Positions 25,132 through 45,798 of a stretch of 64,000 bases of DNA are shown here, piece after piece. Within the stretch, counting starts at the first letter, position 1. Every line of letters starts with the position of its first letter. Source of the stretch: Aigarchaeota archaeon (lineage in GTDB: Archaea > Thermoproteota > Nitrososphaeria_A > Caldarchaeales > Wolframiiraptoraceae); contig JANXDS010000005.1 of NCBI GenBank assembly GCA_025059205.1, positions 1 to 64,000 of the forward strand, read 5' to 3'. A model generated the notes under the pieces. It did no database searches and was not told the origin of the DNA. It worked only from the letters and a program-made list of their open reading frames with translations. Position numbers and translations under genes: made by a program.

Positions 25132-27993
25132 GTGGGCGAGCTGACAAGCGAAGGCGTGTTAGAATTACTGGCGAAACCCGTCAGAACAGCCTTCGTCGAA
25201 AGGTTTGGAGAGCTAACTCCACCCCAGATCGAAAGCATACCGAAGATACTTGAAGGTAAAAATCTGTTATTAATGGCACCAACCGGTACCGGAAAGACCG
25301 AGGCCGCCCTCCTGCCCATACTTAGTAATTTATTACAGAACCCGGGACTTCCGGGAATTAAGGCACTATACATAACGCCGCTCCGAGCGCTTAACCGGGA
25401 CATGTTGGAAAGGTTTGATTGGTGGGCAAAAAAACTAGACATTAACGTATCCGTCAGACATGGAGACACAGCCGTTGCGGAAAGGAGGGCACAAACCCTC
25501 ATCCCGCCAGACATACTAATAACGACTCCTGAAACACTGCAGGCAATCCTCTGCGGAAAAGTTCTCAGAAAGCACTTGAAGAGCGTAAAGTGGGTTGTCG
25601 TTGACGAGGTTCACGAACTTGCCACAGACAAGAGGGGTGCGCAACTCTCCATAGCGCTAGAGAGGTTATTGGAGATAGTTGGTTCCGAATTTCAGAGAAT
25701 AGGTCTCTCAGCCACTATCGGCAGCCCAAAAACAGTAGCCAAGTTCTTAGTTGGAGCCGGAAGAGAGTGCGAAATTGTAAGAGTCCCTGTAGCCAAGAGT
25801 ATGAAAATAGATGTTCTCTATCCTGTGCCGGAAGCTGAAGATGCCGTGCTAGCTGAAGAACTTGCGATCTTGCCAGACGTAGCGGCGAGGCTTAGGACGA
25901 TAAGGAGACTCGTGGAGTCGCATGGTTCAACGTTGATATTTACGAATACGAGACCTTTGGCGGAGATTCTGACAAATAGGTTTAGGGCGTGGGATGAGAA
26001 CTTCAGCGTGGGTATACACCATGGTTCACTAGCAAAATCCGCAAGGGTATCAACGGAGCAGGGTCTAAAGGCCGGTACACTGCTAGGTATAGTCTGCACA
26101 TCATCTCTGGAACTCGGTATAGATGTAGGCAGGGTAGACCTTTGTATACAATACAACTCTCCTAGAGAAGTAACGAGGCTTATACAGAGGGTCGGTAGAA
26201 GCGGTCATAGAATAGGAAGGGTAGCTAACGGCGTTATACTGGTCATGGACTCGGATGATGCTCTTGAGTCTATAGCCATAGCCAGAAGGGCGCTGGCGGA
26301 GGAGTTGGAAGAGGTTAGAATACCTACAAACTGTCTCGACGTCCTAATGCACCAACTTGCCGGGCTCCTGATAGAGCGCGGCCGCGTTAACGTCGAGGAT
26401 GCTTTGAGCATATTCAGGCGAGCCTATGGTTTCTCGGAGCTCGATAAGCACACGCTCCTAAGAGTTCTTGAACATATGAAGGCATTAAATATTTGTGTGC
26501 TTACAGACGATGGCTACTTCTGGAAACCTATCAAATCTAAGCCCCTTTACGATTACTATTTCGGAAACCTTTCTATGATACCAGAAGAAAAGCAATACTT
26601 GGTTGTCCAGGAGGACACAAGCGAGCCCATAGGCATATTGGATGAGGAGTTCGTCGCTGAATACGGTGAGCCCGGAACGAGATTCATATTGCTCGGTAAA
26701 GCATGGGAAATACTTAGCATGCTTGGCGAGAAGATCTACGTCAATAAATTGGACGAATATGAAGGTGCAGTACCTTCGTGGGTGGGCGACGAGATACCGG
26801 TTCCGTATGAGGTTGCGGAGGAGGTTGGCAGCCTAAGAGCAGAATACGAAGAGCGCCTCCGCAAAGGCGAGCCGCATGAGGTCATCTGCGCTGATATAGC
26901 GAAGAGATATGGTGTATCGGAAGAGTTAATCTCGAGAAGCATGGCTGAGGTTAGGGCGCATATCGACTTAGGGATACCGGTGCCTACGAACAGCAGGATA
27001 CTTGTAGAGAAGTCGGGAGAATATACCATAATACATATACATGCGGGACTTAGGATAAACAGGACCTTAGCCAAGGTTATTTCGTTCCTGGTGTCCGAGA
27101 AAGTCGGAATGCCCATCTCCGTCCAGCAAGACCCTTACAGGATCGTCATAAGATCGAAACACGTTTATCCAGAGCTCATCCTCGATGTCATAAAAAGCTT
27201 ATCCGAGGGGGATTTTGGTGAGGTCTTAAGGAAAGCTATCGAGGGGTCTACGTTATTCAGGAGGAGATTAGTTCATGTGGCAAGAAAAATGGGCGTCATT
27301 AGTAAAGAGGCGAGCATACTTGACGTCAATCTTTCTAAAATCGTTGAAGTATTGAAGGGTACGATAGTTTACGACGAGGCCATATCCTACTGTTTATTCC
27401 AAGACTTTGATGAATACAGTGCACGTGAGCTTATTCGCTCTATAGTTATGGGAAATTATGAGCTTGTAACTTACTCATCACCCGATACCGCGGGTCCCTC
27501 ACCTTTGGCATTGCTCACGCTCAGGCGTTATCAGGAGGCGTACGAAACCGTATCTTCAGATAGAATCGAAAAGTTAGTTTTGATGGCAGTTAGAGCTAGA
27601 CTGATGAACGAAACGGGCATTCTCATATGCTCCGATTGTTATCAGTACTTCGACAAAGTAGTGGTCAAGGATGTTGAGGAAAGACCTTCTTGTCCGGCAT
27701 GCGGTTCGAGAAAGCTCGGCTTCCTAAAGGGCGAGGTGGAAGATGTTTACGGTCTAATATCCAGAAAGGGTAAACCTATAAACAAAAAGGAGAAGGAGTT
27801 GCTCAAGGAAATAGAAAGAAGTTCGGATTTGGTAGAGAAGTACGGAAAGGCGGCCATCGTGGCGATATCTGGAAAAGGTTTTACTGTGAAAGATGCTGCT
27901 AAGGTTCTACAAAAGGAAGGAAGCTTAACAAATAGGTTGATACAGTACATAATCGAAGAAGAAAAGAACAAACTGATTGCGACATTCAAATGA
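25132..27993 (+). CDS. Lhr-type superfamily 2 helicase with C-terminal zinc ribbon
   Basis: 953 residues. Q-motif-like TPPQIESIP, Walker A MAPTGTGKTEAA (48-59), motif II DEVH (158-161), SATIG motif III, and motif VI QRVGRSGHRIG. The DEVH box and the large winged-helix/beta-barrel region after the RecA cores fit the Lhr (large helicase-related) family, which unwinds DNA:DNA and RNA:DNA forks with 3'-5' polarity and acts in repair or replication restart. A zinc ribbon (CSDC/CPAC, about 826-862) lies near the C-terminus, followed by a helical tail. The GTG start is the only in-frame option near the family N-terminus. The Nudix gene follows after 15 bases. Confidence 0.9.
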   Translation: MGELTSEGVLELLAKPVRTAFVERFGELTPPQIESIPKILEGKNLLLMAPTGTGKTEAALLPILSNLLQNPGLPGIKALYITPLRALNRDMLERFDWWAKKLDINVSVRHGDTAVAERRAQTLIPPDILITTPETLQAILCGKVLRKHLKSVKWVVVDEVHELATDKRGAQLSIALERLLEIVGSEFQRIGLSATIGSPKTVAKFLVGAGRECEIVRVPVAKSMKIDVLYPVPEAEDAVLAEELAILPDVAARLRTIRRLVESHGSTLIFTNTRPLAEILTNRFRAWDENFSVGIHHGSLAKSARVSTEQGLKAGTLLGIVCTSSLELGIDVGRVDLCIQYNSPREVTRLIQRVGRSGHRIGRVANGVILVMDSDDALESIAIARRALAEELEEVRIPTNCLDVLMHQLAGLLIERGRVNVEDALSIFRRAYGFSELDKHTLLRVLEHMKALNICVLTDDGYFWKPIKSKPLYDYYFGNLSMIPEEKQYLVVQEDTSEPIGILDEEFVAEYGEPGTRFILLGKAWEILSMLGEKIYVNKLDEYEGAVPSWVGDEIPVPYEVAEEVGSLRAEYEERLRKGEPHEVICADIAKRYGVSEELISRSMAEVRAHIDLGIPVPTNSRILVEKSGEYTIIHIHAGLRINRTLAKVISFLVSEKVGMPISVQQDPYRIVIRSKHVYPELILDVIKSLSEGDFGEVLRKAIEGSTLFRRRLVHVARKMGVISKEASILDVNLSKIVEVLKGTIVYDEAISYCLFQDFDEYSARELIRSIVMGNYELVTYSSPDTAGPSPLALLTLRRYQEAYETVSSDRIEKLVLMAVRARLMNETGILICSDCYQYFDKVVVKDVEERPSCPACGSRKLGFLKGEVEDVYGLISRKGKPINKKEKELLKEIERSSDLVEKYGKAAIVAISGKGFTVKDAAKVLQKEGSLTNRLIQYIIEEEKNKLIATFK

Positions 27994-28008: not shown

Positions 28009-28443
28009 ATGGGTAAGGAATATCCGAAAATGCCGGTTGTCGCCGTAGGTGCGTTGATACTTCAAGACCACAAAATACTTCTCGTTAAAAGAAAGAACGA
28101 ACCCGGCAAAGGAAGATGGTCCATTCCAGGCGGTACAGTTGAGCTTGGAGAATCGCTAAAGGATGCAGTGATCAGGGAAGTCTATGAAGAAACAGGCCTT
28201 GTGGTCGAGGTGTCCGAATTGCTTGACATTGTTGAAGTCATTAGGAAAGATGAAGTTGGAAACGTAATTTTCCATTACGTAATCCTCGACTACCTAGCCA
28301 AACCAATTAGCGGCACGCTTAGGGCTGCATCCGACGTCTCGGATGCCCTTTGGGCATCTATAGAGGAAGCTATGAATATGGAAATTACAGATAGCCTAAG
28401 GGCCATGCTTCGCAAGCTAAAAGAAAAAGGATTCTTCCGTTAG
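28009..28443 (+). CDS. Nudix hydrolase
   Basis: 144 residues with a complete Nudix box (about 41-63): GG-x4-GES-x7-REVYEETG. The N-terminal PVVAVGALILQDHKILLVKR and GRWSIPGG before the box are typical of ADP-ribose pyrophosphatase or MutT/NTP-pyrophosphatase members. The substrate is a nucleoside diphosphate linked to another group; which one cannot be decided by eye. It is probably co-transcribed with the upstream Lhr helicase and overlaps the convergent kite gene by 4 bases. Confidence 0.92.
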   Translation: MGKEYPKMPVVAVGALILQDHKILLVKRKNEPGKGRWSIPGGTVELGESLKDAVIREVYEETGLVVEVSELLDIVEVIRKDEVGNVIFHYVILDYLAKPISGTLRAASDVSDALWASIEEAMNMEITDSLRAMLRKLKEKGFFR

Positions 28444-29039
28444 ATTTTCTCTTTAGTATCATCCTTAGACTGAATTGGGCTGATGTCCGTTATAGCCTTC
28501 AGTAATTCTTTTTCGTCCACCTCAGCCAGTGTCCTCCACCCGATCTTTATCATGTTATCCTCAACTTTCATAAGATACCCTTTTCTGATAAACCGCTCTA
28601 TGGCTGCTTCTACTTTCCATTTCGGAAACTTCACCTCTAAGAGCTCCACCAACTCCTTCTCGGTAGCCTTGCCACCTTTAGTGAAGATGTAAGATAACGT
28701 TGCTGCCAAGATCGCCACGTCTTCTATACTCCAACCTGCAGCCACTATGTCTGCGACTGAGAGCGGTTCGGAGAGTGTTACGAAGAACCTAGCTTTATCG
28801 AAGTCGTCTTGGGCTGGGCTACCACTCGACGGTTGGTCGAACATTATCTTTATCCTAAGACCTATATTGTTCAGTTTATTGTTTAGCGCATCAATTATCT
28901 TTAGGTAATTTTTACCTAATCTCCTACGGAGTTCCCAACCCCTGACACCCGGAAGCCTGTGGCTTGAGAAGAGGAGCATGCTGGTGGCTATCGCTAACTT
29001 CTTACCCGCTCGCTCAGCCTCACTCTTTCTCTCTTCCAA
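28440..29039 (-). CDS. Tandem winged-helix kite-like (Nse1/Nse3-MAGE-like) subunit of an SMC operon
   Basis: About 199 residues from the TTG at 29039; a longer frame begins with ATG at 29063. The TTG is preferred because GAGGAGGTG, a near-perfect archaeal Shine-Dalgarno site, lies 10 bases before it and inside the longer version. Two helix-rich winged-helix-like units can be seen: the first around GWELRRRLGKNYLKIIDALN, the second around EKELVELLEVKFPKWKVEAA with RFIRKGYLMKV as the wing. The second resembles the WH-B domain of MAGE/Nse3. Kite proteins (ScpB, MukE, Nse1/Nse3) bind the kleisin of SMC complexes, and this gene is third in an SMC-kleisin-kite operon. ScpB-like assignment is the alternative. 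Confidence 0.65.
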   Translation of the reverse strand: MEERKSEAERAGKKLAIATSMLLFSSHRLPGVRGWELRRRLGKNYLKIIDALNNKLNNIGLRIKIMFDQPSSGSPAQDDFDKARFFVTLSEPLSVADIVAAGWSIEDVAILAATLSYIFTKGGKATEKELVELLEVKFPKWKVEAAIERFIRKGYLMKVEDNMIKIGWRTLAEVDEKELLKAITDISPIQSKDDTKEKI

Positions 29040-29811
29040 GATACTTTGGCACCTCCTCACCATTTAGGGAGATCGCGAATGTCGTTACTTTTTCTCTCTT
29101 ACGTTTTGAAGGATACGGCACTACCTTTATCTCGCCCGTGATGGGGTTCTTCTTTATTTCCGCTAAACCTTCGCTGACGACGAAGCTGAGCACGTAGGCT
29201 CTCCATACAGCTTCTTCGAAACTATCGGCACTTACTATGGACCAATAATCCAATTCACCACTGCTTCCCGCCTTAGCTAGGCATCTTTCGTGCATCTTCC
29301 TAACCTCTTCCTCCAACACCACGTCCTTCGCATAACCTGTCCCCTTCAGAATAAGCAATTTGTCTTCTTGTATCGTCGGAAGCTTCTCACGGACTCTGTC
29401 TCTGGGCGGTAGCATTAGGAAGTACTCCATACCCTGCCTTAGCCTGTAAAGCGTAAGCTGCTCGGCTCTGACTATAGGCCTCCAGCTCCTAGCGAGTGCC
29501 ATAGCCAACTGCTTCGGTTCAGCGGCGGCTATCTTGAGCGATACGAGTTGGCTATCTATGAAAAGCGATGATGCTCTTTCCTTTAACCACTTCTGTTGCA
29601 GCGATATCAAGACGGCTATCTTGTAAAGCGTCTCGGCGTCGAGGATTATTGTATCCAAATCCTTATGCTCTTCTAATATGCGCCTTAGCTTCACTAGGAG
29701 CTCTTTTACGTTGACCGAGAATGGGTCCAGACCCCTTTTCTCGATTGACTCACAAAGCGCTATTATCTTCTCCAGCTCCTCCCTACTCACCATCTTTCTT
29801 TCATGAGACAT
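29020..29811 (-). CDS. Nse4-like kleisin candidate of an SMC operon
   Basis: 263 residues. Residues 29-85 (beginning DPFSVNVKELLVKLRRIL, with LDTIILDAETLYKIAVLI after) look like the N-terminal kleisin helices that bind the SMC neck. Residues 188-233, with SIVSADSFEEAVWRAYVLSF followed by VVSEGLAEI and GEIKVVP, resemble the C-terminal winged helix of kleisins and especially the Nse4 C-terminal pattern (P-x-SF-x2-T-V-x4-Y-x-SFLV-x-DG). The centre is helical and less conserved, as in kleisins. The ATG at 29811 follows GAGAGGTAG and is 6 bases after the SMC gene; the kite gene begins inside its 3' end. Assignment rests on motif reading and operon position. Confidence 0.65.
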   Translation of the reverse strand: MSHERKMVSREELEKIIALCESIEKRGLDPFSVNVKELLVKLRRILEEHKDLDTIILDAETLYKIAVLISLQQKWLKERASSLFIDSQLVSLKIAAAEPKQLAMALARSWRPIVRAEQLTLYRLRQGMEYFLMLPPRDRVREKLPTIQEDKLLILKGTGYAKDVVLEEEVRKMHERCLAKAGSSGELDYWSIVSADSFEEAVWRAYVLSFVVSEGLAEIKKNPITGEIKVVPYPSKRKREKVTTFAISLNGEEVPKYLGREKE

Positions 29812-29817
29812 GCGACA

Positions 29818-31605
29818 CTACCTCTCTACTACGCCAACTGATGATTTTCCGCTGACGTTTTGGACGATAATGACGTTTGCGTCCTCGCCCACGTTTATAT
29901 AACCGGGCGTTATTATTATGTACTGGACGTGTGGATCTGCCCTTGCCGTTGCCGTCAACATCTTTACCATCCTATCCCTATTGAGCGGATCCAGGTGAAC
30001 GTCGAACTCATCAACGGCTCTGAACGGTGACTTGACGTACTTTTGCAACGCTAGAAGGAAGGCAAGCGTCGCTACTATTCTCTCACCACCACTCTGTGTG
30101 TGAGAGTCTAGAAGGACAGGTTCGACGCCCCTGAAACCAACGTAAAGGTCAAGGGATGCTTTCTCGATGTCCTCTAGGTTACGTAAAGATATCTTGCCGT
30201 TTGCATCAACAGATCTTAGTATCTGAATGTAAGCTGGCTCGACTTCTGTCACGAGCTTTCTTAAGAATTCCCTCCAAACCTCCTTTCTACGCTCGATCTC
30301 TTCCTTCGCTTTCTCTATGTTCTCGGATAGCTGCTTGGCTTTCATCTCGACCTCGCTGTACTTAGCATCCGCCAAGAGATACATCTCTTCTGCATTAGGT
30401 GTTACGCTGCCCAAAGAGTTTATCTGGACTTCTAAGATCTTCAAATCTTCTTGGATTTCCGTCGGTCTTCTGTTTGTCTCAACGCGAGGGCCTTTCGACT
30501 CGGCCTCGGACATCTGGGATGCGAGTTTCGTCTTCAACTCGCTTAACTGAGACTTTAGCTTTCTCATCTCAGACTCCGTTAGACGTATTTTAAATCTAGC
30601 AACACCTTCCTGCACCTTTTCGTCGATGAGTTCATCTATCAATTTCTCTATTCTTTTTTCCAGATCATCTAAAACCTCGGATGTCTGGGGCCCCATACCT
30701 CTTAGTTGACTTACGGCCTCACGAATCTTATTGCGTAAAGCCTCGGCCTTTGATTCGTGTTCACCAGCTTCTTTATTTAAGTCTTCGATTTCTAGGACGA
30801 GTGAGGCGATCTTATCCTCAACCCTCTTCACATCATTCTCTAGGACTATGACCTGAGACCAGGCAAGTTCCCGTTCAAGCTCAACCCTGTGATTCTCGAG
30901 CTTTCTGAGCTTTACTAGCTTCCCGTACTCTTCCTTCCAATATTCAACGGTCGCCCTCGCTTCCTCCAGCGTTTTCTTTAGACTCATCTCCTCTGTTAGC
31001 AACATGTTCAACTTTGCCTCAGCATCCACTATTCTCTCCCTGAGTCTCGACGCACCTACAGCATCTTCAACCATCTGAAGTTTTTCAACACTGCTTTTGG
31101 TTACGAACTGTTCTATCATGTTCTGATGCATTATGATGAGCATGTTGTTTGGGTTGATGCCAACCTGTCTAAGCAGGTGCTCGACCTCGGCCTTTGTCAT
31201 GAACTTATTGTTCACGTAATGCCAGTAGTCTCCATTTCTCTTGAGGTATCTGGCGATGGATACTGTGTCCGTGTTTATCGTTCTGAATGGTCTTTTACCG
31301 TTGTGGACGTTGTTATCAAACACGACGGTAACTCTAGCCACATCCTTTCCACGACGTATCAGGTCGCTTAGCCGCTCACCCCTCTCCGTGTAGGTCTGAC
31401 CGAGTGCGACGGATATTCCAAGCAGTATTGAGGACTTTCCAGCACCGTTGGGTCCCATTATGACGTTAAGGCCTGGCTTCAGCGGTATCCTAGAGTATTC
31501 ATGGGACATGAAGTTCTCCAGTATTACCTCTTTTATGTGAGGTACAGACCTGGTCTTCTGCTCCAGCTCAAGCCTTTCTGCGGGCCGTTCGTCCACATCT
31601 TTCAC
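29818..31605 (-). CDS. Short-armed Smc5/6-like ATPase
   Basis: 595 residues with an SMC-type split ABC ATPase. N-terminal head: NFMSHE (31-36), Walker A GPNGAGKS (51-58), Q-loop region IIMHQNMIEQF (157-167). C-terminal head: signature QSGGER (504-509), Walker B FRAVDEFDV (528-536), then DPLNRDRM and IIITP (563-567). NFM-H after a strand, DEFDV and the ITP at the H-loop position are marks of Smc5/Smc6 rather than Smc1-4 or Rad50. Between heads are two coiled coils of only about 110 and 140 residues, joined at a GMGPQ turn (303-307); no hinge domain is visible, although LGSVTPNAEEM (398-408) matches the post-hinge coil of SMCs. GTG start; GGAGGAG lies 11 bases upstream. First gene of the kleisin/kite operon. 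Confidence 0.85.
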   Translation of the reverse strand: MKDVDERPAERLELEQKTRSVPHIKEVILENFMSHEYSRIPLKPGLNVIMGPNGAGKSSILLGISVALGQTYTERGERLSDLIRRGKDVARVTVVFDNNVHNGKRPFRTINTDTVSIARYLKRNGDYWHYVNNKFMTKAEVEHLLRQVGINPNNMLIIMHQNMIEQFVTKSSVEKLQMVEDAVGASRLRERIVDAEAKLNMLLTEEMSLKKTLEEARATVEYWKEEYGKLVKLRKLENHRVELERELAWSQVIVLENDVKRVEDKIASLVLEIEDLNKEAGEHESKAEALRNKIREAVSQLRGMGPQTSEVLDDLEKRIEKLIDELIDEKVQEGVARFKIRLTESEMRKLKSQLSELKTKLASQMSEAESKGPRVETNRRPTEIQEDLKILEVQINSLGSVTPNAEEMYLLADAKYSEVEMKAKQLSENIEKAKEEIERRKEVWREFLRKLVTEVEPAYIQILRSVDANGKISLRNLEDIEKASLDLYVGFRGVEPVLLDSHTQSGGERIVATLAFLLALQKYVKSPFRAVDEFDVHLDPLNRDRMVKMLTATARADPHVQYIIITPGYINVGEDANVIIVQNVSGKSSVGVVER

Positions 31606-31808: not shown

Positions 31809-32033
31809 TTAACTTCTCCAGAAGTGCGGCACGCTAGGCCCTACGATCGTAGGGGAAGACTTGCGCCTTCTCTTGTTGTGGCCGTTGGTGTACTTAGTCC
31901 TCCGACGTCTCTTTATAAATTCCTTAATAGCTGCCGAGAGCTTGGGCACTAACCTCTCGGCGCTCATCCATAGGGTTATCATGATGACCGAGAAGAGTGC
32001 TGACTCTATTACTATGCTCATTAGGTTAAGCAT
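31809..32033 (-). CDS. Possible small single-helix membrane protein with basic tail
   Basis: 74 residues from the ATG at 32033, which is preceded 4 bases upstream by GGTGAT, an exact match to the archaeal Shine-Dalgarno core. A TATA-like CCTTATAAAAGG (about 32093-32104) is suitably placed for transcription toward it. The protein has one membrane helix (about 4-27) and then an Arg/Lys-rich tail (RRRR, KRRRK). I know no homologue. It lies upstream of, and on the same strand as, the Smc5/6-like operon but about 200 bases away. The opposite strand is also open for 70 residues, so this call is tentative. Confidence 0.42.
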   Translation of the reverse strand: MLNLMSIVIESALFSVIMITLWMSAERLVPKLSAAIKEFIKRRRRTKYTNGHNKRRRKSSPTIVGPSVPHFWRS

Positions 32034-32042
32034 AGTAATCAC

Positions 32043-40051: not shown

Positions 40052-40933
40052 ATGACTCTGAAGCAACTCTTTGAACGTGCAAAGTTGCTTAGGCAAAGGC
40101 TGCTGGAAGAAGAAGGTAGCGAGAGATATAAAGAGTGGTTGGACAGAGCAAAAAATGTCTGGAAACCATATAAACCTGAGAAGGTTGGGAGAAAAGTTGC
40201 TGCAGTTGATAGCGGATGGAACTACAGAACGTATTGTGGTTTCTATCTATATGCCATCAGAGCTATTGCTGTTACACCATCCTCGGAAACTATTATTGAG
40301 CCCGTAGTCGAGGTTGATACGTTACCTATGGAGGCTGAAGGGGGCGGCATGAGTCCTGAGCTGTACATGCAAAAAGTAGCCGAATGTTATGAGCACGATT
40401 TGGCCTCAAGAGCATCGAAGGTTTTAGACGCGGTATTGGTTGACGGGTCTATTTTGGCTAGGCTGAATTTGATGTTTGTCCTCAAAAAAGTTAAGCTCTT
40501 CAGGGAGTACGTTGCTTATCTCAGACCGCTGAGAAATAAGAAAAACATCTTGTTCATCTCGAAGTACTCTCAAGATAGGAGCCTTGTGTGTGGAGCGTTG
40601 GGAGATGTTTACTACATCAATAAGGCTACAAGAGGCATAGGATATACGGAACCTATAATATCCGAAAAAGAAGGTACGACCGTATCGGTATTCTACGTGA
40701 GGTTATCGGAAAATTCCGATGCGATACATGTAGAAGTTCCTGCGATAGTTGATTCTGAATATGTTAGATCCATAATTGACGCGCTATACGGCACAACGGT
40801 CAATGGATACCCATATGCCCTCATGGTTGCACACGAAATGGCCTCGATACCTAATGATCTCATAAACATGCTCAGCGAAACGGCAGGGCTTTCTGTTCTA
40901 CCGACAGCCAGGGAGGTGCTCGAAGTTGGATGA
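40052..40933 (+). CDS. nurA: NurA 5'-3' nuclease
   Basis: 293 residues. Resects DNA ends together with HerA. The NurA domain begins with AAVDSGWN (51-58; Asp53 is the metal-binding residue), and later acidic positions are in VLVDGSILARL (about 131-141) and PAIVDSEYV. It is the first gene of nurA-herA-mre11-rad50, all on the plus strand with end overlaps: its stop lies 8 bases inside herA. The 130-base gap upstream divides it from the GfcR-like gene and holds TATA-like A/T stretches. Gene order differs from the Sulfolobus operon, where nurA and herA flank rad50 and mre11. Confidence 0.93.
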   Translation: MTLKQLFERAKLLRQRLLEEEGSERYKEWLDRAKNVWKPYKPEKVGRKVAAVDSGWNYRTYCGFYLYAIRAIAVTPSSETIIEPVVEVDTLPMEAEGGGMSPELYMQKVAECYEHDLASRASKVLDAVLVDGSILARLNLMFVLKKVKLFREYVAYLRPLRNKKNILFISKYSQDRSLVCGALGDVYYINKATRGIGYTEPIISEKEGTTVSVFYVRLSENSDAIHVEVPAIVDSEYVRSIIDALYGTTVNGYPYALMVAHEMASIPNDLINMLSETAGLSVLPTAREVLEVG

Positions 40934-42416
40934 AGTCGGAATCGTGGTCGGCGAGGCGCGACCTGAGCGAATACAATTCTCAGCTAAGGATATTGTCAGA
41001 GTTGGGGAATTCGTCACGGTAGATACTGTAGACGGGCGAGTTCTATACTTGGTTGAGTTCTCCAAGCTGGAGAGCAAACTTCTGTCAAAAGTACATGATT
41101 ACATAACGACGATCGAGGCGAGGGAGGCGAGCAAGGCCAACCCCAGAGATATTGTGAAGTATTGTATCGCAAAAGCCGTCGGACTTGTTGAAGAAGTTTT
41201 GAGAGGTGCACGCGTTTATCCTACGATGCCGCCTAATCCTGGTTCACCTGTATTTCTAGCAGAAGACGAGCTACTGAAAAGAATATTTCATAACGATTCG
41301 AAAGAATGGGTCGAAGTCGGAAGACTTTTGAGGAGGAAGAACGTTACCGTTTCCGTTAACCTGAATAAAATAGCCTCAAGACATCTCGCGATACTCGCAT
41401 CTACGGGCAAGGGAAAGTCTAACCTTTTGGCACTAATAGCGAAGAGGATAGCAGAGAAAAACGGGACCATGATAATACTGGACTATCATGCTGAGTATCA
41501 TGGCCTGAAGATAGGAAAGGTGAGGTTTGTGTCTCCGAAAATTAATCCAAGATACTTAGATTCCGAGGAGCTGGCGGATATGCTCGACATAAAAAGAGAC
41601 GCAACAAGGCAAAGAGGAGTGCTCAGAGAGGCATACACCAAAGAGGTAATGAATGCGCCAAACTTCTGGGAGGCTCTAAAGAAGAACTTAGATGACAAAG
41701 TAAAAGATGAGGACGAAGAATTTCAAACAAGGGCCACTGCCAAAAGGGTCATAGAAATAATCGAAAGAAATCTTGCGATAAAGGGTAACATATTCGATAC
41801 GGAAATAGAAAACCCACTCAATCTCGTTGAGCCCAATAGAATAAATGTGTTGGACCTTTCAGGTTTAACGGAAACCCAAGCGCAGATAATCGTGGCGCAT
41901 TATCTTGCAGAGATCTTGAACGACAGGAAAAACGCGATGTTTAAAAGAAGCTCGAGGTTCAGATCGCCCGTGGTCATAGCTGTTGAAGAAGCTCATACCT
42001 TCATACCACAGGACAGGAGTTCCAAATGCTCTGACGTTTTGGCTAGAATAGCGAGGGAGGGGAGAAAGTTTGGGGTTTCATTGATCTTAGTCTCACAAAG
42101 ACCATGTAAGTTGAACGCGGATGTAGTGAGTCAGATGGGTAGCTTCGCAATTTCTGGCTTAACCCATCCAAAAGACCAGCAGTTTGTTATGGAGGTGACG
42201 GACGAGGTCTCAACTGAGCTGGGCGCATCGTTACCAAGTCTCAACACTGGTGAGATGATATTGTCAGGCCAGTGGGTAACCGTGCCAGTACTCGTCAAAG
42301 TGGACCTAGTAGAGGAGAAGTACATGGGCATGGACTTGGATGCTGTAAGGTTGTGGGCCGAAGATGCTAGCGCAGGACACAGAAGGATATCAACGGAGGA
42401 ACTCATCAGGTTATGA
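40926..42416 (+). CDS. herA: HerA hexameric DNA translocase
   Basis: 496 residues. A HAS-barrel N-terminal domain is followed by an FtsK/HerA-type RecA core: Walker A ASTGKGKSN (158-166), Walker B VVIAVEEAHTFIP (about 340-352) and the arginine-finger region LARIAREGRKFGVS. HerA forms a hexamer that pumps DNA and drives NurA in end resection. The TTG start overlaps nurA by 8 bases and is the only start that keeps the complete HAS barrel. It ends in ATGA shared with mre11 (42413-42416). Confidence 0.95.
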   Translation: MDEVGIVVGEARPERIQFSAKDIVRVGEFVTVDTVDGRVLYLVEFSKLESKLLSKVHDYITTIEAREASKANPRDIVKYCIAKAVGLVEEVLRGARVYPTMPPNPGSPVFLAEDELLKRIFHNDSKEWVEVGRLLRRKNVTVSVNLNKIASRHLAILASTGKGKSNLLALIAKRIAEKNGTMIILDYHAEYHGLKIGKVRFVSPKINPRYLDSEELADMLDIKRDATRQRGVLREAYTKEVMNAPNFWEALKKNLDDKVKDEDEEFQTRATAKRVIEIIERNLAIKGNIFDTEIENPLNLVEPNRINVLDLSGLTETQAQIIVAHYLAEILNDRKNAMFKRSSRFRSPVVIAVEEAHTFIPQDRSSKCSDVLARIAREGRKFGVSLILVSQRPCKLNADVVSQMGSFAISGLTHPKDQQFVMEVTDEVSTELGASLPSLNTGEMILSGQWVTVPVLVKVDLVEEKYMGMDLDAVRLWAEDASAGHRRISTEELIRL

Positions 42417-43528
42417 TTATCGGACACCTGTCAGATACACATCTCGGAGCTTATGCAGGAAGGGATGAAGAAAGAGAGCAAGATTACTATGAAGCCTTTC
42501 AAGAAGCCATCGAGATTTTCATAAGGGAGCATACTAAGCTGGTCATCCATTCAGGCGATATACTGGACTCCTCTAAACCATACGGAACCGCCATGAGGGT
42601 CCTTGTAGAAGGTGTCAAAAGGCTGGATGAAAAAGGTATACGGTTCGTCTTTACTTTAGGTGAACACGACATATCCAACGTACCCAGCACACCTCACCCC
42701 AACATACTTGGGATATTGGGGCTTGCTAACTACATAGGAACGGGAGAACCTTTAGTTATAGGAGACATAGTGGTGGCGGGTCTTCATAAGTACAAGAAAG
42801 TTGAAAGAGAAACGCTGTGTGAGAAACTCAAAGGGGTAGCTAAGAAGGCAAAGCAGGTTGACGGAAAGAAAAGGATTCTCGTACTGCATCAAGGACTTAC
42901 TGAATTACGTGAATTCGCAGGCGAGATCTCTAAATACGATATTCCTGCAGAGTTTGACTACTATGCAATGGGACATTTTCATATGTTCCACGAGTTTAGA
43001 CATGGTAACGGTTTGGGTTCATACCCAGGAGCGACGCACTGGGTAGATTGGAGCGACTCAGAGACCTCTTTCGTTAATCTGGTCGATCTTTCTGCAGACG
43101 AGCCGAAAATAAACAAAGTCAGGTTAGAGTCCGTAAGGCCAAGAATCGAGAAAGACATAAAGTTTGAGGAGCTAGGAACTTTGGTACAGAATCTAACATC
43201 AATTTCGCATAAGAACCGTAAGAGACCTTGTCTCATGATAAGGGTAGAGACTAGTAAACCTTTTGACCCTAAATCTCTTGAAGATTCGCTAAGCGCATTT
43301 TACATCGTCACAATCAAACAGCTCTTAAAGGAGGTAGGTAGAGAAGTTATTCATGAAGCCCCTGACGTGGATGCTGAGTTGATGAGGTTGGTAGAGAGCG
43401 TATTGGGGAGTAAAGAAAAAGCTGAGTTTGCGTTATTTGAGTTACTCAAGGTTCTTAACGATGAAGATTGGAAGAAGGGCGCGCTGGAGCTTATCTGGAA
43501 GATCTTCAGGGAGGGCAGGTTGAGATGA
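42413..43528 (+). CDS. mre11: Mre11 double-strand-break nuclease
   Basis: 371 residues. Phosphoesterase motifs in order: SDTH (7-10), HSGDILDSS (46-54), GEHD (83-86), LVLHQG (about 160) and YYAMGHFHM (about 185). Together with Rad50 it detects and processes DNA ends. Motif III usually reads GNHD in Mre11, where the Asn holds a metal; here it is GEHD, a substitution that may be normal in this lineage. The C-terminal 120 residues form a short capping domain and Rad50-binding helices. It is coupled on both sides by ATGA overlaps (42413-42416 and 43525-43528). Confidence 0.94.
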   Translation: MIIGHLSDTHLGAYAGRDEEREQDYYEAFQEAIEIFIREHTKLVIHSGDILDSSKPYGTAMRVLVEGVKRLDEKGIRFVFTLGEHDISNVPSTPHPNILGILGLANYIGTGEPLVIGDIVVAGLHKYKKVERETLCEKLKGVAKKAKQVDGKKRILVLHQGLTELREFAGEISKYDIPAEFDYYAMGHFHMFHEFRHGNGLGSYPGATHWVDWSDSETSFVNLVDLSADEPKINKVRLESVRPRIEKDIKFEELGTLVQNLTSISHKNRKRPCLMIRVETSKPFDPKSLEDSLSAFYIVTIKQLLKEVGREVIHEAPDVDAELMRLVESVLGSKEKAEFALFELLKVLNDEDWKKGALELIWKIFREGRLR

Positions 43529-45798
43529 TCACTAAAGTTATTCTTAACAACTTTACCTCGCATAAAGAGACGTTCCTAGACCTGGGACCGGGCCTTAACG
43601 TATTCGTTGGTAGAAACGGTTCTGGAAAGACTTCTGTTGTAGATGGGATAACATACGCGCTTTTTGGCAAGCATGGAAGGGGGAACAACGTAAACATAGT
43701 TAGGGACGGGGCGTCTAGAGGTTACGTAGAAGTCGAGTTCGTACTCGACGGCAAAACATACGTTGTAGGTAGGCATTTTGATGGACAAGGTAGGTTAGAG
43801 GATGCTTACTTAAAATTTGACGGAAAACCTTTGGTGAGCGGTGAGAGAAAGAGAGAGGACGCGGTAACCAGAAAGATTGAAGAAATCATGCGCATGGGAT
43901 ACGAGAGATTGAGGGCTTCTGTGATCATCCAGCAAGGGGAGATCGACAGAATACTTTCTTGGCAACCCAGGGAGATAAAAGCACTATTCGACGATCTCCT
44001 GGGCCTTAGTATGATGGAGAGCGCCTACAGAAAGATGGGTGATGTGATTAAGGATTTTGAGGAAAGGATAAGGAAGGATACAGGATACTCCGTCGAGGAC
44101 GTCGAAAGGGTCCGCAGAGAAATCTCAGAATACGAGTCCGCGATAAGCAAGCTTAACGAGGGATTGAGAGAGAAAGGACGACAGCTTGCTGAGCTAAAGG
44201 AAAAGTATGAAATAATGAGGTCTGAGCTAGAAAAGATGGAGCAATTCAGGGAGGCATACTACAAAGCATCGTCCCAAATCGGCTCCATTACCGATATCGT
44301 TAAGGATTGGTTGAAGAAAGAGAGGGAAGAGCTCAGGAAATGCGAGTCGGCATTAGAGCTGATGAAGTTAAAGGAAGAAGTCGAAGAGAGAGTAAGGCTG
44401 AGGGATAGGCTAAAAGAAGAGGTCATGAAGCTGGAGAAGGATATTGAGTATTTGAAGATAGAAATCGGCCGGGTTGAGGAAGAAAGGAAGGAGGTAACAA
44501 AAAAGCTAGAAGCACTAGATAAAGAAAGTTTTAGGGGAAGGTCGTTTTCTGAAATCGTTAGAGAGGTCGACAGCAAAGCTGTCGAACTCATTGACCTGGC
44601 CGTAGAACTTGGTAAATCGTTAGCGACCAGGGACGGTAGAGAAGGTTTTCTAAAGGAAGCTTTGGAGAACAAGAAAAAGGAAGTGCTCGGGCTTTTCGAG
44701 GAATCTTATAGATCCGGACTAAAAGCGTACTTCGAGGACTTGGAGACCAAGATAAAGAGCCTGAACGGAGAAGCGGAGATTCTCTCGTCAAAGCTAGAGT
44801 CAGCAAGTCTGAAGCTAAAAGACACGAAAGATAGATTGGTACAGCTATCCAAGCTGAATGGTGAGAGCCTTGAGGATTTGCAGGAATGGATTAGAAGGGC
44901 TCAGATTATATTGGAGGCTGTCGGTATCGATAGTAGAGAGAAGTTTAACCTAAGGAAGGCAAAGCTAGAAAGCGTTGAGAAAACCCTTGCATCAATATCG
45001 GAAGATAAGCTTCCAGAGCCTAAGTTACTCTATGCTCTAGCCGTGACGGATGACATCGTTCATAAGATAAAAAGCGTAGAGGCCGTGATGTCGGAGGCCA
45101 AGACCTTCGATAACGAACTGTACAACAACCTCAGGAAGTCTTGTGAAGAGTTGCAGAAGAGTATCGCTTCTTTGGAAGTCGAGGTTGAGAGGGACCGAAA
45201 AGATATCAAGGAGAAAGAGGATGGACTTTCTAGGCTCAAAAACGTCATAAACACATTAGAAGACGCCAGAAAGTTACGGGACTTCCTCGTCGACGTTAGG
45301 GATAAGGTATACTATAGAGATGGGCCTGTCCTCAAGTCTCTAAGGTCGTGGGCTATCAAAGAAGTATCAAGGCTCGCTACTGAGAACCTGGAATTATTCA
45401 GCGTAAACGTAGATGGTGTAAAGCTCGGGGAGATTAGGAACGAACTCGAGATAAAGTGTTACCAGAGGGGGCGGGAAGCCCATACTGATAGGCTTAGCGG
45501 CGGTGAGAAAGTTGCCGTAGCTCTGGCCCTTAGGCTTGCCATCGGTGACATACTTGGTGCAAGAAGGTTAGGCTTCTTCGTACTCGACGAACCAACAGTG
45601 CACTTAGACTCCGAGAATAAGATGAAACTTGCGGAGGTTTTTTCGGCACTGAGCAAAGGTGTCAGGCAGGTTATCGTAATCACACACGACGAAGAAGTTT
45701 TCGAGGAGGCTGAGGCTATACTTTACAAGTTCGAGAGAAGTACTGGAACAGAGGAATACAGCAAGGTGGAGCTAGTAGGAAGACCAATTAGAAAGTGA
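43525..45798 (+). CDS. rad50: Rad50 ATPase without a zinc-hook motif
   Basis: 757 residues from the ATG at 43525, which overlaps the mre11 stop as ATGA; the frame is open upstream to 43468 but that part lies inside mre11. Walker A GRNGSGKT (29-36), Q-loop IIQQGEID (about 142-149), signature RLSGGEKVA and Walker B FFVLDEPTVHLD near the C-terminus are intact. The arms are long coiled coils, but the protein has only three cysteines and no CXXC, so the zinc hook that dimerises Rad50 is missing. Non-coil stretches around 335-375 and 500-530 may mark a different apex. It is about 120 residues shorter than typical archaeal Rad50. Confidence 0.94.
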   Translation: MITKVILNNFTSHKETFLDLGPGLNVFVGRNGSGKTSVVDGITYALFGKHGRGNNVNIVRDGASRGYVEVEFVLDGKTYVVGRHFDGQGRLEDAYLKFDGKPLVSGERKREDAVTRKIEEIMRMGYERLRASVIIQQGEIDRILSWQPREIKALFDDLLGLSMMESAYRKMGDVIKDFEERIRKDTGYSVEDVERVRREISEYESAISKLNEGLREKGRQLAELKEKYEIMRSELEKMEQFREAYYKASSQIGSITDIVKDWLKKEREELRKCESALELMKLKEEVEERVRLRDRLKEEVMKLEKDIEYLKIEIGRVEEERKEVTKKLEALDKESFRGRSFSEIVREVDSKAVELIDLAVELGKSLATRDGREGFLKEALENKKKEVLGLFEESYRSGLKAYFEDLETKIKSLNGEAEILSSKLESASLKLKDTKDRLVQLSKLNGESLEDLQEWIRRAQIILEAVGIDSREKFNLRKAKLESVEKTLASISEDKLPEPKLLYALAVTDDIVHKIKSVEAVMSEAKTFDNELYNNLRKSCEELQKSIASLEVEVERDRKDIKEKEDGLSRLKNVINTLEDARKLRDFLVDVRDKVYYRDGPVLKSLRSWAIKEVSRLATENLELFSVNVDGVKLGEIRNELEIKCYQRGREAHTDRLSGGEKVAVALALRLAIGDILGARRLGFFVLDEPTVHLDSENKMKLAEVFSALSKGVRQVIVITHDEEVFEEAEAILYKFERSTGTEEYSKVELVGRPIRK

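Follow-up and report, generated by a model that had tools for sequence, protein, structure and literature searches.

An archaeal operon predicted to encode a hinge-less SMC, a kleisin and a kite of the Smc5/6 clade

Three genes and their predicted products

The stretch of DNA considered here (the window) comprises positions 1 to 64,000 of contig JANXDS010000005.1 from an Aigarchaeota archaeon (GCA_025059205.1), an archaeal assembly of 1.19 Mb that is 97% complete. At positions 28440–31605 it carries three open reading frames (ORFs) on the minus strand, whose predicted products are an ATPase of the structural maintenance of chromosomes (SMC) type, a kleisin and a kite (Table 1). An original prediction, made from the sequence alone, had placed three tightly ordered genes at these same coordinates, with a 6-base gap followed by an overlap, and this arrangement was borne out, the gap between the SMC and kleisin ORFs being 6 bases and the overlap between the kleisin and kite ORFs 44 bases. 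The SMC ORF has a GTG start, preceded by GGAGGAG. Because the ORFs are kept as proteins in dozens of genomes, with the same order and spacing, the operon is far beyond chance.

Table 1. Positions in the window of the three genes, their principal motifs and the convergent neighbour
Feature	Position	Strand	Basis
SMC ATPase, Smc5/6 clade, hinge-less, 595 aa	29818..31605	-	Pfam, PDB match, profile, trees, AlphaFold2
Walker A GPNGAGKS, SMC residues 51-58	31432..31455	-	sequence; conservation
Apex turn of coiled-coil hairpin, SMC residues 304-308 (would-be hinge site)	30682..30696	-	AlphaFold2, conservation, no hinge match
ABC signature SGGER, SMC residues 505-509, inside LDSHTQSGGER	30079..30093	-	sequence, alignment
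Walker B / D-loop AVDEFDVH, SMC residues 530-537	29995..30018	-	sequence, alignment
ITP at switch/H-loop, SMC residues 565-567	29905..29913	-	sequence, alignment
Kleisin, Nse4-like, 263 aa	29020..29811	-	profile, Pfam Nse4_C
Nse4_C-like C-terminal winged-helix region, kleisin residues 192-230, predicted SMC-head binding	29122..29238	-	Pfam, PDB profile
Kite, tandem winged-helix, 207 aa	28440..29063	-	Pfam, AlphaFold2, Foldseek
Lhr-type DEAD/DEAH helicase, 953 aa, convergent neighbour	25132..27993	+	Pfam DEAD, DEAD_assoc, WH_Lhr

The ATPase matches Pfam SMC_N with an E-value of 6.4e-39 (match scores below are likewise E-values), and its best single-sequence match in the PDB is yeast Smc5 (8.7e-37), with Pyrococcus SMC lower at 4.2e-26. 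With a profile built from 35 relatives, the best matches are Smc6 (7.8e-72) and Smc5 (6.8e-69), and the best canonical SMC follows at 4.2e-53. The Walker A residues G51, P52, N53, G54, G56, K57 and S58 are invariant across these relatives. All 11 residues of LDSHTQSGGER are identical between the window protein and yeast Smc5, which also have the pattern PFR-VDE in common, while the Walker B motif DEFDV is of the Smc6 type (yeast Smc6 has ALDEFDVFMD) and ITP at the switch/H-loop is as in both Smc5 and Smc6. In a tree of head domains the window family forms a single clade that is joined by Smc5, Smc6 and two Asgard groups with support of 96/91, canonical SMCs split off with 100/100, and an approximately unbiased (AU) test speaks against grouping the family with canonical SMC (p=0.013). 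A first tree with more long branches had the same shape with weaker values (support 88/89, AU p=0.0496). Computation on these sequences thereby places the ATPase in the Smc5/6 clade, apart from canonical SMC, and an identity as Rad50, SbcC or RecN is ruled out by the scores and trees. The kinship is already known in outline: PMC9389158 cites an archaeal 'SMC5/6-related' SMC clade (Yoshinaga and Inagaki 2021), the same clade, which probably includes the window ATPase or its relatives. As cited there it is an ATPase phylogeny, in which no description of kleisin and kite partners or of hinge loss was found.

For the second protein, a family profile from 38 relatives matches yeast Nse4 (1.1e-5) and human EID3 (4.8e-4) in the PDB and, more weakly, C-terminal domains of ScpA (0.014–0.017); Pfam Nse4_C is matched by 25 of the 38 members, at best with 1e-6. 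The same profile finds one further protein in the window's genome (1.2e-4), directly behind the canonical SMC gene, as would be expected if both proteins are kleisins. When the family profile was compared directly with a single Asgard ScpA, there was no match. Computed from sequence, then, the second protein is a kleisin with a C-terminal domain of the Nse4 type. The third protein matches the Pfam families MAGE/Nse3 (1.2e-4) and Nse1 (0.024), which are found in 8/39 and 5/39 members of its family, respectively. A sequence-profile search of the PDB gave nothing useful for the kite, and its fold was recognised by structure instead: AlphaFold2 predicts two winged helices with a predicted local distance difference test score (pLDDT) of 91, and in a Foldseek search of the PDB each of the ten top matches is a kite of an SMC complex or a MAGE domain, including MAGE-G1/NSE1, Nse1-Nse3-Nse4, MAGEA4, JetB and MukE. 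Asgard homologues of the kite are linked to it in profile-profile comparison (5e-15) and match Pfam ScpB (2.8e-5). The model thus computes to a kite of the Nse1/Nse3 fold. These results agree with the original prediction, which had seen Smc5/6 marks in a split SMC-type ATPase (Walker A, LDSHTQSGGER, AVDEFDVH and ITP are all found in the sequence), a kleisin-like C-terminus in the second protein and two winged-helix units in the third. It had also proposed a phylogeny as a check, and in the trees the heads do group with Smc5/6 and away from canonical SMC.

The coiled-coil arms and the missing hinge

What had gone unnoticed in the original prediction is the absence of a hinge. SMC_N is matched by all 35 aligned members of the SMC family, and SMC_hinge is not among the 25 Pfam families listed for them, so that at most one of the 35 could match. 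In the AlphaFold2 model of the window SMC monomer (mean pLDDT 88), a helix at residues 186–303, a turn at 304–308 and helices at 309–464 form a plain coiled-coil hairpin, and the model has no strands from 137 to 467. By our arithmetic (118 residues of helix, 0.15 nm per residue) the arm would be ~17–18 nm long. Conservation is lowest around the apex (residues 271–315), the N-terminal tail excepted, and arm length differs among the members, the distance from W249 to W444 ranging from 183 to 304 residues. As for a zinc hook, no CxxC (Cys-x-x-Cys) occurs in the coil of any of the 35 members, and the window protein has zero cysteines. Model and alignments together amount to a computational demonstration that the window SMC has neither hinge nor hook. 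Pfam does recognise a hinge in an Asgard relative of 850 aa (1.3e-11) and in a further Asgard SMC of 1131 aa (2.4e-10), and because the Asgard relatives keep it, the hinge was most likely lost in the short archaeal form. Models of SMC motors now lean on a hinge that dimerises the arms, and a conserved family with heads, kleisin and kite but no hinge lets one ask, in a natural system, which part is doing the work. The carriers include thermophiles, whose proteins may purify easily.

The Pfam hinge model has no match anywhere in the window's genome, and this, together with failing ScpA searches, suggested a genome without canonical SMC. That possibility was ruled out, as a canonical SMC of 1154 aa is encoded there (contig C4, locus L184, 3–4110), with a divergent hinge region that escapes Pfam PF06470, and the gene behind it encodes a very divergent kleisin, ScpA-like, which in most of the order goes undetected by Pfam PF02616. 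The genome has one member of the window SMC family, whose other matches there are this canonical SMC and a Rad50-like protein. Smc-ScpA(B) resembles the window's set in its make-up of SMC, kleisin and kite, with weak sequence ties between the kleisin and ScpA and between Asgard kites and ScpB, but the canonical SMC has long arms with a hinge, and in this genome it is encoded elsewhere, with a kleisin of its own. Canonical Smc-ScpAB is marked by a hinge-bearing SMC with its head in the canonical clade, and the window SMC has neither trait. The canonical SMC and its kleisin would serve the bulk organisation of the chromosome.

Two other readings of the operon were weighed. In the first, the proteins would form a second condensin-like organiser and loop extruder, the arm tips dimerising without a recognisable hinge and the SMC behaving like an ordinary one. 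Head, kleisin and kite are all present, and the apex could compensate for the hinge-less state; however, a conserved dimer interface at the apex is unlikely because the apex is poorly conserved, arm length is variable, and there are neither strands nor a hook, and we regard this reading as rather unlikely. In the second, the ATPase would be Rad50/SbcC-like or an archaea-specific SMC-related protein (ASRP/coalescin) with two unrelated winged-helix partners. Rad50 and ASRP/coalescin ClsN are likewise short coiled-coil ATPases of the SMC superfamily in archaea, the arms of the window SMC are short (595 aa in total), and NCBIfam models of Rad50 and ASRP heads match it weakly. Against this, the NCBIfam model Smc TIGR02169 scores 2.3e-61 and the ASRP model 1e-22; a zinc hook is reported for most ASRPs (PMC9389158) and the window SMC has neither hook nor hinge; Rad50 and ClsN have a zinc hook and come without a kleisin-kite operon, whereas a kleisin of the Nse4 type and a kite of the Nse type adjoin the window SMC; and a separate Rad50-like protein is encoded in the window. 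This second reading is very improbable.

Distribution, neighbours and probable role

Of 300 genomes sampled from the phylum, 126 have the kite; within the order it is present in 41/43 genomes, with one copy each; the two genomes without it are 70–73% complete. SMC, kleisin and kite occur together in 38 of the 40 fetched loci of the phylum, covering ~30 families, and in one of the 38 the SMC lies on the other side and on the other strand. The remaining two (L037 and L053) were considered as loci without an SMC, which was ruled out since in each the same contig holds the gene ~10 kb off. Carriers that have names include Bathyarchaeota, Thermofilales, Methanomethylicota, Korarchaeota (Methanodesulfokora), Thaumarchaeota and metagenome-assembled genomes (MAGs) of Calditenuaceae, the closest named relative found being a Calditenuaceae MAG (52%). 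Outside the phylum, 21 of 28 genomes of Hadarchaeota (the phylum of a Hadesarchaea MAG) carry the operon, and the same trio was found in 5/228 Asgard genomes (L153–L157), where the SMC is ~850 aa long (in one genome cut by the contig end) and the profile links to the window family are 1.3e-12 for the kleisin and 5e-15 for the kite. The three-gene order, whose conservation across archaeal genomes had been proposed as a check, is thus conserved well beyond the window.

In a survey of neighbours at 50 loci with fetched flanks, an Lhr-type helicase lay within the flank in 23. In most of these it is convergent, and it often abuts the kite gene. Lhr has 1–3 copies per genome (10 genomes; one in the window's genome), and we estimate that chance would place it within 5 kb at ~1/100 loci. 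This adjacency favours chromosome maintenance or repair over defence, and the near-universal, single-copy conservation in the order points to a housekeeping rather than a defence role.

Defence had been offered in the original prediction as an option, and would mean that, as in Wadjet (JetABCD), the complex senses small circular DNA of plasmids or viruses and an effector destroys it. Wadjet and MukBEF do have SMC, kleisin and kite subunits, JetABC having the same three types; the kite structure also matches JetB and MukE, and eukaryotic Smc5/6 restricts episomes (PMC10586767). The archaeal set, in contrast, lacks JetD and an SMC hinge and is near-universal in the order, one copy in each of 41/43 genomes, rather than patchy as defence genes are. 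No JetD-like Toprim nuclease, nor any other nuclease effector, recurs among neighbours in the 50-locus survey, where Lhr is the conserved neighbour, and PADLOC gives no match for kleisin or kite and generic ATPase matches only for the SMC. An identity as Wadjet or Lamassu was rejected for want of JetD and on these generic matches, and defence of this kind is improbable, more so than the condensin-like organiser.

It is probable, in our judgement, that the product of the operon is a minimal complex of SMC, kleisin and kite in the Smc5/6 clade. In chromosome maintenance it would probably work as an ATP-gated DNA clamp or a translocator taking short steps, rather than as a classical loop extruder with long arms. 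The heads of two identical SMC subunits would meet around two ATP, a single kleisin would bridge the neck of one SMC and the head of the other, and a kite dimer would sit on the middle of the kleisin, giving a stoichiometry of 2 SMC : 1 kleisin : 2 kite. Together they may clamp duplex DNA atop the ATP-engaged heads, as Smc5/6 does. With hinge-less arms, closure of the ring would depend on heads and kleisin alone, or on weak contacts between arm tips, so that a clamp or short-step translocator is favoured over a long-range loop extruder. Of the earlier proposal of a chromosome- or repair-related loop extruder, the chromosome or repair role is favoured by the Lhr neighbour, and long-range extrusion is the less likely part. 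The probable role is in repair or, together with the Lhr helicase next door, in resolving intermediates of recombination or replication. Several points count against this interpretation. The N-terminal, neck-binding half of the kleisin is weakly backed, with a match to the ScpA N-domain at 0.089 over profile positions 5–74; the structure predictions are of monomers; the case for repair is built on gene neighbourhood and kinship; and the tree samples yeast Smc5/6 by just two divergent sequences, whose long branches mean that Smc5 in particular is not established as the sister group.

Other genes were observed around these operons. At 21/50 loci a gene of an unnamed ~230-aa family is found upstream of the SMC, mostly divergent and often 56–170 bases off (for example L047 2704–3390, L049 9304–10005 and L057 7254–7937, with 18 further loci); it has no convincing match in Pfam or NCBIfam and was not found near the window's operon. 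Upstream of the window SMC, on the same strand, is a putative gene, an ORF of 77 aa at 31809–32042 with a hydrophobic N-terminus and a basic tail. Some 8.5 kb from the operon, at 40052–45798, four tightly packed genes resemble the archaeal end-resection set and are read as NurA, HerA, Mre11 and a short Rad50 (776 aa), the last being Rad50-like by Pfam and the others read by inspection.

Eukaryotic Smc5/6 and the Asgard relatives

Among eukaryotic SMC complexes, Smc5/6 is to our knowledge alone in having kept its kites. The archaeal set resembles it in the clade and motifs of the head (LDSHTQSGGER of Smc5, DEFDV of Smc6, and ITP), in the Nse4-type C-terminus of the kleisin and in a kite of the MAGE/Nse1 fold. 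It differs in having one SMC with short arms and no hinge where eukaryotes have two SMC proteins with a hinge, and one kite where they have two. A RING domain (as in Nse1) and a SUMO ligase (Nse2) were found neither in the three proteins nor in recurrent neighbours, and Nse5/6 was not recognised in the archaeal set, although no search was aimed at Nse5 or Nse6. What had been called a complete Smc5/6-like complex is thus Smc5/6-like in its head, kleisin and kite; with one SMC, one kite, no RING, no SUMO ligase and no hinge, it is not complete. Smc5/6 nevertheless gains prokaryotic relatives with matching partner subunits, and its origin becomes testable in archaea. No account of the kleisin and kite partners, the operon, the hinge loss or the synteny with Lhr was found in the literature, in a search that did not cover preprints or the 2021 paper.

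Some Asgard archaea have a longer SMC of the Smc5/6 clade, of ~1000 aa, in operons such as L173 (4524–9267), L174 (5008–9845) and L175 (1629–9503), and also in L160, L161, L166 and L168. After the SMC come a middle protein, a kite, a small Cys-rich RING-like protein, a JAB protease, E1/ThiF, a 103-aa protein and an E2-like protein. The kite is linked by profile to the window kite (7e-8), and Pfam recognises Prok-JAB (4.6e-9), E1/ThiF (1e-38 to 2e-44) and UQ_con for the E2-like protein (6e-4 to 8e-3), with no match for the RING-like protein. The middle protein was considered as a kleisin, which is not detectable by profile. These operons suggest that a ubiquitin-type cassette was tied to an Smc5/6-like machine before eukaryotes. 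A wider proposal, that the hinge-less SMC-kleisin-kite motor is an ATP-driven DNA clamp and, in archaea, sister to the ancestor of the eukaryotic Smc5/6 complex, and that the Asgard link to the ubiquitin cassette predates eukaryotes, is tentative and in our view somewhat doubtful; if true, the link of Smc5/6 to modification by ubiquitin and SUMO would be older than eukaryotes.

In other Asgard genomes (L158/L176 and L159/L177), the ~1000-aa SMC, the middle protein, the kite (MAGE, 0.014) and the Cys-rich protein occur with no E1, E2 or JAB genes nearby. The hinge-bearing Asgard SMC of 1131 aa (L165 2833–7374 and L167 3844–7887) branches outside the Smc5/6 group, alongside Lokiarchaeal SMC-like proteins, and small genes downstream of it resemble kleisin and kite by position.

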